Assembly (NCBI RefSeq): GCF_009796865.1
Contig: NZ_CP047028.1
Span: forward strand, 2,542,001 to 2,606,000
Direction: 5' to 3'
DNA: 64,000 nucleotides
DNA from: Formosa sp. L2A11
GTDB taxonomy: Bacteria > Bacteroidota > Bacteroidia > Flavobacteriales > Flavobacteriaceae
Position 1 is the stretch's first letter, and each line of letters opens with the position of its first letter. Both the position numbers and the translations under genes were made by a program. The notes below the pieces were generated by a model. The model saw nothing but the letters and a program-made list of their open reading frames with translations, did no database searches and was not told the DNA's origin. This document shows, one piece after another, positions 51,401 through 57,203 of this stretch.

Positions 51401-51439
51401 TAAAATCATTGTATATATCTGTGATTGTTTGTAAATTTA
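51401..51439 (+). promoter_or_regulatory. Promoter of the first universal stress protein gene
   Basis: TAAAATCATTG (51401-51411) ends in the -33 TTG (51409-51411). A 20-base spacer leads to TAAATTTA (51432-51439), one base off TAnnTTTG. The ATG is 26 bases after the start of the box. The same layout precedes the second copy. Confidence 0.55.
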
Positions 51440-51457
51440 AATAAGAAATTTTATATC

Positions 51458-52309
51458 ATGAGACATATACTTTTACCAACAGATTTTTCTGATAATGCTT
51501 GGAATGCAATAGAATATGCATTACATCTTTTAAAGGACGAGACATGTAATTTTTACATTTTACACTCTTTTGATCAGCCCGATTCCGGTTCTTACATGGG
51601 AGTTACTTCCGCAATGGCTAAAGAATCTATTTATAAAGCGCAAGTAGAAAATAGTAAACACGGTTTACGTGAGGTTTTAAATAAAGTAAAAACTACATTT
51701 TCTAACACAAACCATAACTTTAAATGTTTATCTATTTATAAAACATTTCCTGAAGCTATAAAAAAAGTTGTAACAGAGTTTAGTATTGATTGTATTGTAA
51801 TGGGAACAAAAGGTGCTGGAGCCATAAAGGAAATTACAGTTGGTAGCAATACTTCTGGTTTAATAGGTTTAATAAATTGTCCAATTATTGCAATTCCTAG
51901 ACATGCACATTTTAAAGAGATTAAAGACATAGGAATATCTACAGACTACGATATAAAATTTACAGAAAAAGGATTAAGTCTGCTTTTAGATATTGCAAAA
52001 TCTAACAGCTCTTTAATTTCTGTATTTCATATTATGGATCGTATTAAAACTTTAACAGAATCTCAGGAAGAAAAATCTGAAATCTTAAAAACGATTTTAA
52101 AAGATTATTCTGCAAATTATTTCACACTTACAGATATTGGAGTTATTACAGGAGTTCGCGCATTTGTACAAAGCAGAAAATTAGATATGTTATGTGTTGT
52201 TGCTAGAGAACAAGATTTTTTAAAACGTATATTAAATCAGTCTTACAGTAAATCTATAAGTAATAAATCTAATGTGCCTTTATTAATTTTAAACATTAAA
52301 AGCTTCTAA
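51458..52309 (+). CDS. Tandem-domain universal stress protein, copy 1
   Basis: A 283-residue UspA-family protein with two Usp domains. The first (1-145) starts MRHILLPTDFSDNAWNAIEY and has the ATP-binding type motif MGTKGAGAIKEITVGSNTSG (about 125-144). The second half (150-283) is more diverged. It is closely related along its length to the next gene, evidence of a tandem duplication. Usp proteins act in stress survival, often under starvation or low oxygen. The frame extends upstream to 51425, but ATG 51458 is the Usp start. It is divergent from the response regulator gene. Confidence 0.9.
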   Translation: MRHILLPTDFSDNAWNAIEYALHLLKDETCNFYILHSFDQPDSGSYMGVTSAMAKESIYKAQVENSKHGLREVLNKVKTTFSNTNHNFKCLSIYKTFPEAIKKVVTEFSIDCIVMGTKGAGAIKEITVGSNTSGLIGLINCPIIAIPRHAHFKEIKDIGISTDYDIKFTEKGLSLLLDIAKSNSSLISVFHIMDRIKTLTESQEEKSEILKTILKDYSANYFTLTDIGVITGVRAFVQSRKLDMLCVVAREQDFLKRILNQSYSKSISNKSNVPLLILNIKSF

Positions 52310-52360
52310 AGAGTAAAGTTTTTTTAGTGTGAAATTTAAAATAACGCACAATTAATATAT

Positions 52361-52393
52361 AAAAAGGTAGCGATTTTAAATTGCTACCTTTTT
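52361..52393 (+). terminator. Terminator between the two universal stress genes
   Basis: AAAAAGGTAGC (52361-52371) pairs with GCTACCTTTTT (52383-52393), followed by T residues. Confidence 0.85.
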
Positions 52394-52429
52394 GTTTTTA
52401 GATATGCATTTCAATAATTAAAATATGAA

Positions 52430-52468
52430 TAAAATCATTGTTTAAATAAGGGAAATGTGCTAACTTTA
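52430..52468 (+). promoter_or_regulatory. Promoter of the second universal stress protein gene
   Basis: TAAAATCATTG (52430-52440) with TTG at 52438-52440, a 20-base spacer and TAACTTTA (52461-52468). Spacing to the ATG (26 bases from the box start) is identical to the first copy. Confidence 0.55.
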
Positions 52469-52486
52469 AATAAGAAACTTAATACC

Positions 52487-53338
52487 ATGAAATACATACT
52501 TTTACCTACAGATTTTTCTAAAAATGCTTGGAATGCAGTAGAGTACGCTTTAAATTTATTTAAAGAAGAAATATGTACATTCTATATTTTTAATGTGTAT
52601 AATCAGCCTGCTTCTGGGCCGTATACGGGGATAACTTCTGCCAAGGCAAGAGAGGCTATTTATCACGCTCAAGTAGAGAATAGTAAAGCAGGGCTTAAAG
52701 ATGTATTAAGTAAGGTTAACGAGAAGTATAATAACCCAAATCATATTTACAAATGTTTGTCTAAGTACGAGATGTTTTCTACGGCTGTTCTTAATGCAGA
52801 AAAAGAGCTTAATATAGACTGCATTGTTATGGGAACAAAAGGAGCAAGCACATTTAAAGAAATGACGTTAGGTAGTAATACAGCCTCTTTAATTGGCATT
52901 ATAAAATGTCCGATAATTGCAGTTCCTAAAAATAAAGAATTTAAAAAAATTAAAGAAATTGGTTTATCTACAGATTATGATATTTCGTTTACAGATTTAG
53001 GATTAAAACCACTTTTACGTTTAGTAAATTATAATAACTCTACGCTTTCTGTGTTACACATCATGGATCGTAATTGTAAATTATCTACAAAACAAACCGA
53101 ATCTTTAGATAGTTTGAAAACGGTTTTAAAACCTGTTAAATCAAATTTTTATACACTTACAGATATTGGTGTATCTTCTGGAGTTCATGCTTTTGTAGAA
53201 AGCAGAAAATTAGATATGTTATGTATTATTGCTAAAGAACAAGACTTTTTAAAACGCATACTAAACAAGTCGTATAGCAAATCTATTAGTAACCATTCTA
53301 ATGTACCACTCTTAATTCTGAGTATTAAAAATTTTTAA
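52487..53338 (+). CDS. Tandem-domain universal stress protein, copy 2
   Basis: A 283-residue paralogue of the preceding gene. It starts MKYILLPTDFSKNAWNAVEY, has MGTKGASTFKEMTLGSNTAS near 125-144, and ends SISNHSNVPLLILSIKNF, against SISNKSNVPLLILNIKSF in copy 1. The strong match in the last 40 residues (SRKLDMLCIIAKEQDFLKRI) shows conserved function of the second half. The duplication includes the promoter. Confidence 0.9.
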   Translation: MKYILLPTDFSKNAWNAVEYALNLFKEEICTFYIFNVYNQPASGPYTGITSAKAREAIYHAQVENSKAGLKDVLSKVNEKYNNPNHIYKCLSKYEMFSTAVLNAEKELNIDCIVMGTKGASTFKEMTLGSNTASLIGIIKCPIIAVPKNKEFKKIKEIGLSTDYDISFTDLGLKPLLRLVNYNNSTLSVLHIMDRNCKLSTKQTESLDSLKTVLKPVKSNFYTLTDIGVSSGVHAFVESRKLDMLCIIAKEQDFLKRILNKSYSKSISNHSNVPLLILSIKNF

Positions 53339-53741: not shown

Positions 53742-54359
53742 ATGAAAATACTAGCAATTGGTAAAAATTATGTTCTAAAAGCAGAAGATTTAAAAACGAC
53801 TGCAAAAAGCGGAAAACAACTTATTTTCTCTAAGCCAGAATCAAGTTTATCTAAAGACAATAAAGATGTTGAATATCCTGCATTTACAGAAAATTTAGCT
53901 TACGAAGCAGAGTTAGTTGTAGAGATTGGTAAAACAGGAAAAAATATAGCAGAAGCAGATGCCGCGTCTTATATTTCAGGAATTGCAATTGGTATAGATT
54001 ATACAGCAAAAGATGTTTTAAACGATGTAAGAGAAGGAAAAGGCCCTTGGGATTTAGCTAAAGGTTTTGATGGTGCTGCACCAATTTCTCCAGTGAAAGC
54101 CATTTCAAACTTTCCAGATCTTAAAAACATTAATTTCGACTTAAAAATTAATGGTAAAACAGTTCAAGAAGGAAATACAGGATTAATTATTTACAACTTC
54201 GAAGAAATTATTGCATTCGTATCTAAATACTTCACTTTAGAACCTGGAGATTTAATCTTTACAGGAACTCCAGCTTATGGAACAGGTCAAATTCATAAAG
54301 GCGATCAATTACAAGCTTCTATTGAAGGTGAATTATTATTAGACTTTAAAATGGTTTAG
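53742..54359 (+). CDS. Fumarylacetoacetate hydrolase (FAH) family protein
   Basis: A 205-residue member of the FAH family (FAHD1-like), which includes acylpyruvate hydrolases and oxaloacetate decarboxylases. Metal-binding Glu residues are in NLAYEAELVVEIGKTGKN (about 50-67), with GIAIGIDYTAKDV near 83-95. GDLIFTGTPAYGTGQI (about 171-186) is the family C-terminal signature. It is a cytosolic Mg/Mn enzyme; the exact substrate is unknown. It is a single gene with its own terminator. Confidence 0.88.
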   Translation: MKILAIGKNYVLKAEDLKTTAKSGKQLIFSKPESSLSKDNKDVEYPAFTENLAYEAELVVEIGKTGKNIAEADAASYISGIAIGIDYTAKDVLNDVREGKGPWDLAKGFDGAAPISPVKAISNFPDLKNINFDLKINGKTVQEGNTGLIIYNFEEIIAFVSKYFTLEPGDLIFTGTPAYGTGQIHKGDQLQASIEGELLLDFKMV

Positions 54360-54383
54360 TAATTAATTACCATTAAAATATTT

Positions 54384-54411
54384 AAAACTCGAGATTCACG
54401 TCTTGAGTTTT
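54384..54411 (+). terminator. Terminator after the FAH gene
   Basis: AAAACTCGAGA (54384-54394) pairs with TCTTGAGTTTT (54401-54411), one G-T pair, followed by Ts. Confidence 0.75.
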
Positions 54412-54422
54412 TATTTATAACA

Positions 54423-54444
54423 TAAACGAATATATATTCGTTTA
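54423..54444. promoter_or_regulatory. Perfect 22-bp palindrome, probable TetR operator 1
   Basis: TAAACGAATAT (54423-54433) is directly followed by its reverse complement ATATTCGTTTA (54434-54444). It lies in the -33 region of the tetR promoter, whose -7 box TACCTTTG is at 54451-54458. The core CGAAT-N4-ATTCG recurs before the next gene. Confidence 0.75.
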
Positions 54445-54450
54445 AATAAT

Positions 54451-54458
54451 TACCTTTG
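54451..54458 (+). promoter_or_regulatory. -7 promoter element TACCTTTG of the tetR gene
   Basis: TACCTTTG fits TAnnTTTG and ends 4 bases before the GTG start at 54463, so the mRNA is probably leaderless or nearly so. Confidence 0.55.
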
Positions 54459-54462
54459 TCTT

Positions 54463-55035
54463 GTGAAACAAAAAGATGAATTAAAACGAGAAGCAATTAT
54501 TAACGAAACTATAGGCATAGTTTACGAAAAGGGTTTTGCAGGTGTTAAAATGGCACAGATAGCTAAAAAGGTAGATGTTTCGCCTTCAACTTTGTACGTT
54601 TATTTTAAAAGTAAAGACGATTTAATTAGTACAATTGCTACCGAAGTTTTAAAAAGCATCACACAAATAAATCAAAATCAATTGCAAAGTGATTTGCCTT
54701 TTAAACTCAAATTTAAAGCCATTTGGGTGTTTTATATCAACTTTGGTATTAATAATAGAAAGGAAATGAGCTTTATTAATCAAGTGAAGCAATCTCCTTA
54801 TTATGACATGATTCCAGAAGATATTCGGAATTTAAAATCGTCTTTAGTTTTGGATTTGTTAGATGAAGGAAAACGTGAAGGTTTAATTAAGGATTTAGAT
54901 AATACCATATTATCTGCACTTTTAGGATCGTTCCTTACAGAATCTGTTAAACTGATTGATACAAAAGCACTAAAATTGAATGATGTCACTATAGATGCTA
55001 TGTTTCTATTGGCTTGGGATGCTATTAAGAATTAA
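54463..55035 (+). CDS. TetR family transcriptional regulator
   Basis: A 190-residue TetR-type repressor. The N-terminal helix-turn-helix spans about 9-55 (EAIINETIGIVYEKGFAGVK; AQIAKKVDVSPSTLYVYFKS). The C-terminal ligand domain is helical and diverse. The start is GTG at 54463; the next Met is at residue 31, inside the helix-turn-helix, so GTG is required. A perfect palindrome lies in its promoter, indicating autorepression, and a second half-matching palindrome precedes the metallo-hydrolase gene 47 bases downstream. The inducer is unknown. Confidence 0.9.
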   Translation: MKQKDELKREAIINETIGIVYEKGFAGVKMAQIAKKVDVSPSTLYVYFKSKDDLISTIATEVLKSITQINQNQLQSDLPFKLKFKAIWVFYINFGINNRKEMSFINQVKQSPYYDMIPEDIRNLKSSLVLDLLDEGKREGLIKDLDNTILSALLGSFLTESVKLIDTKALKLNDVTIDAMFLLAWDAIKN

Positions 55036-55048
55036 AAAATTTGCTTAA

Positions 55049-55070
55049 TAATCGAATAAAAATTCGATTA
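55049..55070. promoter_or_regulatory. Second palindrome, probable TetR operator 2
   Basis: TAATCGAAT (55049-55057), AAAA, ATTCGATTA (55062-55070). The core CGAAT-N4-ATTCG is the same as at 54423-54444. It lies between the tetR stop (55035) and the metallo-hydrolase ATG (55082). Confidence 0.72.
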
Positions 55071-55081
55071 AAAAACACAAC

Positions 55082-56206
55082 ATGTTTAAAAAAACAATTA
55101 AAAGAATGGGAATTATAATTGGGGTTAGTATCGTATTAATAGAGGTAATAGGAATCATATTTTTATACACGAGTCCTGAATTTGGAGGTTCGCAAACAGC
55201 CCAAAAAGAAGCAAAATTTGCAAAAACTGACCATTATAAAGATGGGAAATTTGTGAATCTTGGGGCGGTAGATCTAAGTATGGGAATTAAAGAATTCGGT
55301 AAAATGTTATCAGGGTATTTTAATCAGCCAAAAAATGTAGTGCCTAATCATCTGCTTCAGGTGGAATCTATTATTCCTTCAGATTTAGAAAATTATAATG
55401 GAAAAACACGTTTATTTTGGTTTGGACATTCTACTTTTTTACTTCAAATGAACTCTAAAAATATTTTAATAGATCCTATGTTTGGCAGTGTTCCTGCACC
55501 TCATCCTATGTTAGGAACTAAGCGTTTTAGTACACATTTACCAATAGCTATAGAAGATTTACCACATATTGATGCTGTTTTAATCTCTCACGATCATTAC
55601 GATCATTTAGATTATGGTAGTATTATTAAACTTAAAGATAAAGTCGATCAGTTTTATACACCGCTTGGTGTGGGCGCTCATCTAGAATCTTGGGGTATTC
55701 CTAAAAACCGTATTCATGAATTAGATTGGTGGGACACGATTGATTTTTCAGAATTAACATTTATAAATACACCGGCGCAACATTTTTCAGGAAGAGGATT
55801 AACCGATAAAGGAAAAACATTGTGGAGTTCTTGGATTATTAAATCTAATGAAGAGAATATTTTCTTTAGCGGAGATAGTGGTTATGGCCCACATTTTAAA
55901 GAGATTGGAGATAAATATGGTCCGTTTGATTTTGCGATGATGGAATGCGGACAGTACAATGCTTTATGGCACGAAATACATATGTATCCTGAAGAAACAG
56001 CTCAAGCCGCAATAGATATTAAAGCCAAACGTATGATGCCTATTCATTGGGGTGCGTTTAAATTAGCCACACATAATTGGACAGAACCTGTAGAACGTTT
56101 AAAGCAAGCAGCAAAAACACTCCGTTTAAAGTTGATTACACCACGCATAGGAGCGGCCATAAGTATTGAGAATACAAGTGAAAATTCGACAGATTGGTGG
56201 AAATAA
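55082..56206 (+). CDS. MBL-fold metallo-hydrolase, membrane-anchored
   Basis: A 374-residue metallo-beta-lactamase fold hydrolase of the UlaG/NAPE-PLD-like group. A hydrophobic N-terminal helix (about 10-29; IIIGVSIVLIEVIGIIFLY) may anchor it to the membrane or act as signal. The metal motif HxHxDH is SHDHYDHLDYG (about 168-178); further ligands lie in FFSGDSGYGPHF and PIHWGAFKLATHNW. Relatives hydrolyse phosphodiesters, including N-acyl phosphatidylethanolamine; the substrate here is unknown. It is probably controlled by the upstream TetR protein through operator 2. Confidence 0.88.
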   Translation: MFKKTIKRMGIIIGVSIVLIEVIGIIFLYTSPEFGGSQTAQKEAKFAKTDHYKDGKFVNLGAVDLSMGIKEFGKMLSGYFNQPKNVVPNHLLQVESIIPSDLENYNGKTRLFWFGHSTFLLQMNSKNILIDPMFGSVPAPHPMLGTKRFSTHLPIAIEDLPHIDAVLISHDHYDHLDYGSIIKLKDKVDQFYTPLGVGAHLESWGIPKNRIHELDWWDTIDFSELTFINTPAQHFSGRGLTDKGKTLWSSWIIKSNEENIFFSGDSGYGPHFKEIGDKYGPFDFAMMECGQYNALWHEIHMYPEETAQAAIDIKAKRMMPIHWGAFKLATHNWTEPVERLKQAAKTLRLKLITPRIGAAISIENTSENSTDWWK

Positions 56207-56271
56207 TTATTATTAACACTTAGTATTCTGAAATCCTGTAGGAATTAGGTGTCACTCTTCTGATAAATGTA

Positions 56272-56279
56272 TATTTTTG
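56272..56279 (+). promoter_or_regulatory. -7 promoter element TATTTTTG upstream of the DMT gene
   Basis: TATTTTTG matches TAnnTTTG, 51 bases before the ATG at 56331. Confidence 0.45.
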
Positions 56280-56330
56280 CAACTTCAATTTTAGAACGTT
56301 AATAATTCTGAATATAAATATCTTAAGAAG

Positions 56331-57203
56331 ATGCAATTAAAAGAATCCATAAAATTAATGCTGCTAAGTACGTTGGCTTTTGCATGTATGAACGGAGCTG
56401 TAAAATATTTAGATAATATTGGAGCCTTTCAAATTGTGTTTTTCAGATCGTTAGGATCGTTGTTTTTTACTTTTGGTTATTTATTAAAAAATAAGATTCC
56501 GTTAGTTGGTAAAAACAATAAATTACTAATTTTAAGAGGTCTTGTGGGCGTAACATCAATGTCTTTATTCTTTATGTCTACTAAATATTTACCTATTGGT
56601 ACAGCGGTTTCTTTAAGATATTTAGCACCTATTTTTGCTGCTATTTTTGCGGTATTAATTTTAAAAGAAAAAATATTTCCGTTACAATGGGTGTTTTTTA
56701 TTTTGGCCTTTTTAGGTGTCGTTATTTTGAAGGGATTTGATACAGATTTAAATACCTTTGGATTAACTTTAATCCTTATTGCTGCTGTATTTAGCGGATT
56801 AGTATATATAATTATTAGTAAAATAGGGAAGTCGGAACATCCTGTTGTTGTGGTTAATTATTTTATGATTATTTCTACAACCGTAGGCGGATTGGTTACT
56901 ATTAATAACTGGGTAACCCCTGTAGGTTTACAGTGGTTATTCTTAGCATTACTTGGTGTTTTTGGATATTTCGGACAATTATTAATGACAAAAGCATTCC
57001 AGAATGCACAAACCAATCAAGTGGCACCCGTTAAATATGTAGAAGTTATTTTTACCATGATTCTTGGTATTACAATTTTTGATGAATCTTACCCATTTTG
57101 GTCTCTATTTGGTATTTTATTAATTATTGTTTCTCTTATTGCGAACATTGTTTATAAAGGAAAAAAGACTAAGAAATTAGCATTAGAAAACGCTAAATCT
57201 TAG
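56331..57203 (+). CDS. EamA family (DMT superfamily) transporter
   Basis: A 290-residue inner-membrane protein with ten helices in two EamA repeats. Typical segments are SLGSLFFTFGYLLKN, TAVSLRYLAPIFAAIFAVLI (about 90-109) and QVAPVKYVEVIFTMILGITI (about 232-251). Family members export metabolites or drugs; the substrate is unknown. It is a single gene, convergent with the glutamate dehydrogenase cluster; only 16 bases separate its stop from the next gene end. Confidence 0.88.
   Translation: MQLKESIKLMLLSTLAFACMNGAVKYLDNIGAFQIVFFRSLGSLFFTFGYLLKNKIPLVGKNNKLLILRGLVGVTSMSLFFMSTKYLPIGTAVSLRYLAPIFAAIFAVLILKEKIFPLQWVFFILAFLGVVILKGFDTDLNTFGLTLILIAAVFSGLVYIIISKIGKSEHPVVVVNYFMIISTTVGGLVTINNWVTPVGLQWLFLALLGVFGYFGQLLMTKAFQNAQTNQVAPVKYVEVIFTMILGITIFDESYPFWSLFGILLIIVSLIANIVYKGKKTKKLALENAKS

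Follow-up and report, generated by a model that had tools for sequence, protein, structure and literature searches.

In a 64,000-nucleotide stretch of Formosa sp. L2A11 DNA (contig NZ_CP047028.1, positions 2,542,001 to 2,606,000; hereafter the window), a tetR gene is flanked by two palindromes that share one core, the first lying ahead of the gene and the second between it and the gene for a NAPE-PLD-like metallo-hydrolase. Autorepression at the first site together with control of the hydrolase at the second, as a first-pass annotation of this DNA had predicted, is very probable in view of conservation, since both sites are present at all 13 closely related loci (the near loci, defined below) and recur before unrelated genes. 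Our best explanation, held with modest confidence, is that the locus is a local TetR switch in which site 2 serves as a roadblock on transcription reading through from tetR. This reading starts from what is observed: two conserved sites with no other convincing copy, a -7 promoter box at site 1 only, and a run of T residues (T-run) ahead of site 2.

A paired motif around one tetR gene

Predicted operator 1 occupies positions 54423..54444 (assigned to neither strand) and is a perfect 22-bp palindrome, TAAACGAATATATATTCGTTTA, with its core at 54427-54440. Predicted operator 2, likewise without strand, lies at 55049..55070, TAATCGAATAAAAATTCGATTA, where perfect 9-bp arms enclose a non-palindromic AAAA centre and the core spans 55053-55066. 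Both palindromes and their common core, CGAATNNNNATTCG (CGAAT-N4-ATTCG), are thus as the first-pass annotation had described them. The core occurs twice in the window versus 0.06 copies expected, and none of 100 shuffles contained two. In the whole 3.78-Mb genome it is found at 4 places, both copies outside the locus sitting within long open frames, and a reversed control pattern is found at 8. When the centre is restricted to A/T (the W4 core), 2 places remain, as they do for its reversed control, and these two exact copies flank the single tetR gene, 626 bp apart. A random distribution of the core had been named as an outcome that would speak against the operators; by genome-wide count there is indeed no excess, but the pair around one tetR gene is conserved, and it is this conserved pair, not a genome-wide excess, that constitutes the signal.

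The same pattern was seen within the genus, where six genomes were searched for CGAATWWWWATTCG and the reversed control pattern appeared 0 to 3 times per genome. All five genus genomes that have the TetR carry both W4 cores at the locus, one of them (G299) with one extra core, within a gene. The sixth (G245) has no TetR match at E 1e-25, and its two W4 cores both lie within genes; its best relative of the hydrolase, 40% identical, is at a contig end.

Allowing one mismatch gave 23 places in the Formosa genome versus 37 for the reversed control. Apart from the two operators these comprise 21 places, 19 of them within open frames; the place at 3482574 has little flanking symmetry and an open frame about 100 bp downstream of it, and that at 2377441 lies beyond the 3' end of an open frame. 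A scan with up to three mismatches (553 places versus 478 for the control) was left unused, its listing having omitted both perfect sites of the window. A scan for the regulon, as the first-pass annotation had suggested, thus recovered the two operators, but a wider regulon was rejected, the one-mismatch scan having yielded no convincing further target in this genome. Judged by sequence, the regulon would be the tetR-hydrolase locus alone, and weaker sites may exist elsewhere.

Comparison among relatives, which had also been suggested as a check, gave the firmest result. At E 1e-25 the TetR is present in 9 of 299 family genomes, our own included, and all nine carry both sites. Together with four loci of the genus (L005, L006, L077 and L079) these make up the 13 near loci, at every one of which both sites are kept, each scoring 9 or 10 of the 10 positions of YGAATNNNNATTCR. 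To this set were added matches from a profile search at E 1e-35, with a profile built from 14 sequences including near ones, which hit 47 of 397 family and 19 of 395 phylum genomes, the two samples overlapping; only matches with a given locus entered the analysis. A homologue search returned 31 loci, of which five (L005-L009) were analysed and 26 weaker matches left out. In the resulting 54 TetR loci, near ones included, a score of at least 9 was reached by site 1 in 48 and by site 2 in 33, whereas shuffled stretches reached it in 82 of 3000 cases upstream and 86 of 3000 downstream, and none of 55 tetR coding stretches scored 9. The loci were picked by their TetR and not by the motif, and kinship among them means that they are not independent.

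For the anatomy of site 2 we used 37 loci, namely the 33 with a score of at least 9 and four with 8 of 10 (L123, L129, L143 and L144), a score that is weak by itself, as shuffles reach at least 8 in about 25-29%, and L129 has only half a palindrome. Two further loci scoring 8 (L116 and L122) were removed by hand, their matches falling inside the next gene. One locus of 55 (L142) was excluded from the anatomy counts, leaving 54; it is another tetR-hydrolase pair, with palindrome-like, unscored stretches before and behind tetR. The conservation suggests that operators of many uncharacterised Bacteroidota TetRs could be predicted directly from sequence.

The different anatomy of the two sites and how site 2 may act

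The consensus of the -7 box in Bacteroidota is TAnnTTTG, and its position relative to the transcription start point is known for promoters of this type. In the window the box of the tetR promoter, TACCTTTG at 54451..54458 (+), begins 10 bp after core 1 and ends 4 nt before the start codon. All 13 near loci, and 22 of the 37 site-2 loci, have a TAnnTTTG in the 22 bp that follow core 1, as compared with about 3% by shuffling. Box and tetR start codon (GTG in nine of the near loci, GTG or ATG overall) are separated by exactly 4 nt in every near locus and, in the whole set of 54, at 21 loci; a search of 40 bp found no exact box at 19. Given this gap and the position of the box in such promoters, the tetR mRNA is probably leaderless.

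Site 2 is built differently. The hydrolase ATG at 55082 comes 15 bp after the end of core 2 and 11 bp after that of operator 2, and in none of the 13 near loci does TAnnTTTG occur in the 22 bp after core 2. In L071 and L072 the ATG follows the end of core 2 after 5 bp and in L079 after 10 bp, so close that no room is left there for a -7 box. Instead, site 2 is preceded by an A/T tract, AAAATTTG at 55036..55043 (+), between the tetR stop and operator 2, with 10 bp separating the end of its T-run from core 2. The corresponding distance is 7-13 bp (median 10) in 31 of the 37 loci; shuffling of the same 22 bp placed a T-run at this distance in a mean of 7.7 loci and a maximum of 15 in 2000 rounds, and before core 1 it is seen at the same distance in 10 of 37. 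Moreover, a T-run of at least 3 follows the tetR stop in 30 of the 31 loci with site 2 near the stop and in 5 of the other 24 (which include L142 and loci with site 2 further from, or nearer to, the stop), as against 38 of 143 stops of other genes. The first-pass annotation had noticed neither the probably leaderless tetR message, nor the lack of a canonical box at site 2, nor the T-run with its fixed spacing.

In 30 of the 37 loci the tetR stop and core 2 are 19-24 bp apart, and we considered whether the stop itself sets the spacing. This was rejected, as core 2 lies 82, 84 and 51 bp from the stop in L071, L072 and L140, respectively, which nonetheless keep the distance between T-run and core 2. 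For this reason we treat the T-run and the operator as belonging together. L007-L009 have no T-run, and their core 2 comes 9-10 bp after the stop.

The switch that we favour would be local and self-contained, and its proposed steps are binding by this TetR, read-through, roadblock or termination, and release by a ligand. A TetR dimer on operator 1, adjoining the -7 box, would shut off its own tetR promoter, the source of the presumed leaderless message, and a dimer would also occupy operator 2, which ends 11 bp short of the hydrolase gene. No promoter box is recognised for this gene, which would most likely be transcribed by read-through from tetR; TetR bound at operator 2 would then halt RNA polymerase just past the tetR stop, the T-run would aid release of the polymerase, and no hydrolase would be made, until a small ligand freed both sites of TetR. 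We favour a roadblock or termination because it would explain at once the missing box, the closeness of site 2 to the start codon, the T-run, and the rarity of the T-run at site 1. The hairpin right ahead of the T-run in L070, L071 and L072 also counts in its favour. More speculatively, and with a low though not negligible probability, operator 2 and the T-run might form a ligand-controlled, protein-dependent terminator, within a portable Bacteroidota module of leaderless promoter-operator, tetR, T-run and operator with exchangeable enzyme genes behind it; here TetR would stop the polymerase coming from tetR over the T-run, about one helical turn upstream, and release would follow, broadly as happens at RNA polymerase I terminators. 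Mapping of RNA ends could put the roadblock-terminator model to the test.

Several observations weigh against the favoured switch. The motif shows no genome-wide excess, its reversed control patterns being equally or more frequent, and only 22 of the 37 site-2 loci have the box behind core 1. A strong hairpin before the T-run is missing in most of the 24 of 37 site-2 loci that were folded (mean z -0.74, z below -3 in 4), and the T-run of the window itself is just 3 long. In three of the 37 site-2 loci (L117, L118 and L127) a canonical -7 box does follow core 2, the next gene starting 276-324 bp further on, and in these site 2 is, to go by the box, a promoter operator. Finally, the A/T tract before operator 2 may itself be a promoter element.

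The last point leads to the closest competitor, which we regard as quite possible, a roadblock being slightly more likely. Here the hydrolase would be transcribed from a separate promoter, P2, whose atypical -7 element would lie in the A/T tract just past the tetR stop; operator 2 would cover the P2 start point and block initiation, so that read-through is unnecessary. Such a promoter explains the fixed spacing about as well as a roadblock does, the distance of about 10 bp between T-run and core 2 persisting when both lie away from the stop. TTTG occurs within the tracts of the window, L006, L068 and L069, the canonical box after core 2 in L117, L118 and L127 fits a promoter at this place, and the terminator-like hairpin directly 5' of the T-run in L070, L071 and L072 (z -3.67, -3.45 and -3.64) would hinder read-through. 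However, the A/T tract matches TAnnTTTG poorly and variably, the 22 bp after core 2 hold no such box in any near locus, and a sigma-70-type scan found no excess (10 versus 10.0 expected), its consensus not being that of this phylum.

Two other explanations of the sites fare much worse. It is most unlikely that site 2 works in RNA, either as a hairpin that limits translation of the hydrolase or by being bound by TetR as RNA in the manner of RamR and sRamA5. In its favour, transcripts probably include site 2, folding of the window copy gives -7.7 kcal/mol, and RamR interacts with an RNA that is cleaved out of the romA message (PMC4310594). Yet the same core stands at site 1, ahead of the -7 box and probably outside the transcribed region, and 8 of the 24 folded site-2 copies reach just 0 to -1 kcal/mol with the motif still kept. 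Even less credible is binding of both palindromes by some regulator other than this TetR. The genome may hold TetR paralogues (27 candidates in a first listing), but the sites flank tetR in all 13 near loci, and elsewhere in the genus genomes the exact W4 core lies solely inside genes. By eye, the two sites at one locus also tend to have the same outer base (CGAAT or TGAAT; exceptions include L069, L070, L073, L074, L119 and L125), which again argues for the adjacent TetR. DNA looping between the sites was considered as well. Eleven of the 13 near loci have their cores 618-629 bp apart, and the 684 and 686 bp of L071 and L072 alter the helical phase, so that a fixed phase is not universal; looping may still occur.

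Exchangeable genes, the proteins and the inducer

Behind operator 2 the 13 near loci carry a metallo-hydrolase in 11 cases and an SDR in two (L070 and L073). Elsewhere the cargo is a universal stress protein (USP) in the Chitinophaga TetR loci L007-L009, an alpha/beta-hydrolase (L121, L124 and L132), an SDR (L137, L138 and L140), an aldo-keto reductase (AKR; L145 and L147), a creatininase-like protein (L117 and L118) or, once more, a metallo-hydrolase (L139, L142, L143 and L144), and some other loci have cargo without a name. Pfam was run on 20 of 52 extracted downstream proteins, L007 among them, and the remaining cargo was named by eye; next-gene starts were called mechanically, some of them too early. 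A quick TetR tree of 47 sequences, with long branches and an unsure deep order, requires the hydrolase label to have changed 4 times, and well supported branches compel 3 of these changes. Ten TetRs whose cargo genes encode nitroreductases, NAD-binding proteins or zinc-ADHs form a group in which 8 score 9 or 10 at site 1 and 9 have no site 2. As the cargo varies and this sister group is mostly without site 2, the two-site layout follows the TetR lineage rather than the enzyme. L120, L122, L126, L128, L130, L134, L146 and L151 belong to a sister TetR group that has a TGAATGA-type site ahead of tetR but lacks site 2, and the proteins encoded behind tetR there are nitroreductases, zinc-ADHs or NAD-binding proteins. 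In L114, L115, L117-L119, L125, L127 and L148 the next gene starts 234-324 bp behind core 2, and in six of these loci the next protein has about 195 amino acids; the one of the six that was tested, from L114, gave no Pfam match.

The tetR gene (54463..55035, +) has a GTG start and encodes 190 amino acids without a cysteine. Its product matches TetR domains above their cut-offs (PF00440, 44.6 bits against 24; PF22604, 40.3 against 27; PF16295, 38.8 against 28), and by its TetR_N helix-turn-helix and TetR-type C-terminal domain it is a TetR family regulator. The predicted fold (mean pLDDT 91.1) is closest to 3pas, 3he0 and 4me9, with RamR and FadR structures ranking lower; RamR is also among the sequence matches. 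The closest titled matches are TetRs of 83 and 81% identity. The metallo-hydrolase (55082..56206, +; PF12706, E 7.3e-47) has human NAPE-PLD (PDB 4qn9) as its best PDB match (E 2.4e-57), and the alignment brings SHDHYDHLD, TPAQHF, SGDSGYG and PIHWG into line, which we take to be the NAPE-PLD metal-ligand motifs. By homology including these metal-binding motifs the hydrolase is NAPE-PLD-like, so that the label given in the first-pass annotation holds. The likeness to the human enzyme is one of catalytic-domain sequence; the hydrolase is bacterial and shows, by eye, an N-terminal hydrophobic stretch.

A terminator-like hairpin (54384..54411, +), found by a terminator scan, follows the upstream FAH-family gene and separates tetR from it. 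Over 54300-56400 the scan returned 2 terminator-like sites versus 1.1 expected, and none between tetR and the hydrolase. Inverted repeats resembling this hairpin stand before site 1 in L005, L006 and L067, as judged by eye. Further upstream, at 51425-53338, lie two tandem genes that we named by eye as universal-stress-protein-like; the parallel with the USP cargo of the Chitinophaga loci is probably a coincidence.

The first-pass annotation had further suggested a lipid-derived inducer, a question separate from the mechanism at the sites. A lipid made or consumed by the hydrolase, for example an N-acylethanolamine or a fatty acid, seems to us possible but rather doubtful. Besides the best PDB match of the hydrolase, the FadR structures among the fold matches of the TetR, one of them with stearoyl-CoA, point in this direction; however, 3pas, 3he0 and 4me9 match that fold better, and the TetR falls below the FadR equivalog cut-off (NCBIfam NF053878; 46.5 versus 200 bits). 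Moreover, the genes behind related TetRs that have both sites encode SDR, AKR, USP, alpha/beta-hydrolase and creatininase-like proteins, and the suggestion thus found no support. Regulators of the NemR type sense via cysteine; the window TetR has none, so a thiol switch is unlikely. From the variety of cargo enzymes, several of them oxidoreductases, we would guess that the inducers are small foreign or reactive compounds.

Relation to known systems

In the RamR-romA-ramA system of Klebsiella, ramR is divergent from romA and the operator is atgagtg-n6-cactcat (PMC4310594). The window locus differs in that tetR and the hydrolase gene have the same orientation and the operator is another one, and also in its site behind the regulator gene, no such operator being described in the available portion of that paper. 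In the scheme of Ahn et al., as related in PMC6790063, the window TetR is a Type II regulator, its presumed target gene being adjacent and in the same orientation. It is set apart by having one site on each side of tetR, the second in a gap that lacks a canonical -7 box.

Among bacteria, LacI offers a precedent for a roadblock, as at O3 it stops transcription of its own gene (PMC3711431). The likeness lies in a repressor bound behind its own gene that halts the polymerase coming from that gene; in the LacI case, looping between operators can occur and the shortened lacI message is tagged, whereas the roadblock here is proposed. RNA polymerase I terminators with Reb1 or Nsi1 (PMC12366685) combine a T-rich stretch, a roadblock site and an RNA hairpin. 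Common to both is a T-rich stretch at a short fixed distance upstream of the site of the roadblock protein, but those terminators are eukaryotic, the T-rich stretch lies about 15 bp upstream, compared with a T-run ending about 10 bp from core 2, and their hairpin has a counterpart in few tetR loci. According to the same source, Lac repressor or LexA roadblocks gave poor Pol I termination and a hairpin was needed, which warns against drawing the analogy too loosely. Among the matches listed in our literature searches there was no prior description of a two-site tetR module, which does not prove its absence. A TetR with operators adjoining its own gene is ordinary; less ordinary are a site on each side of tetR, the second mostly without a canonical -7 box but with a T-run at a fixed distance, and the persistence of this layout while the gene behind it changes.
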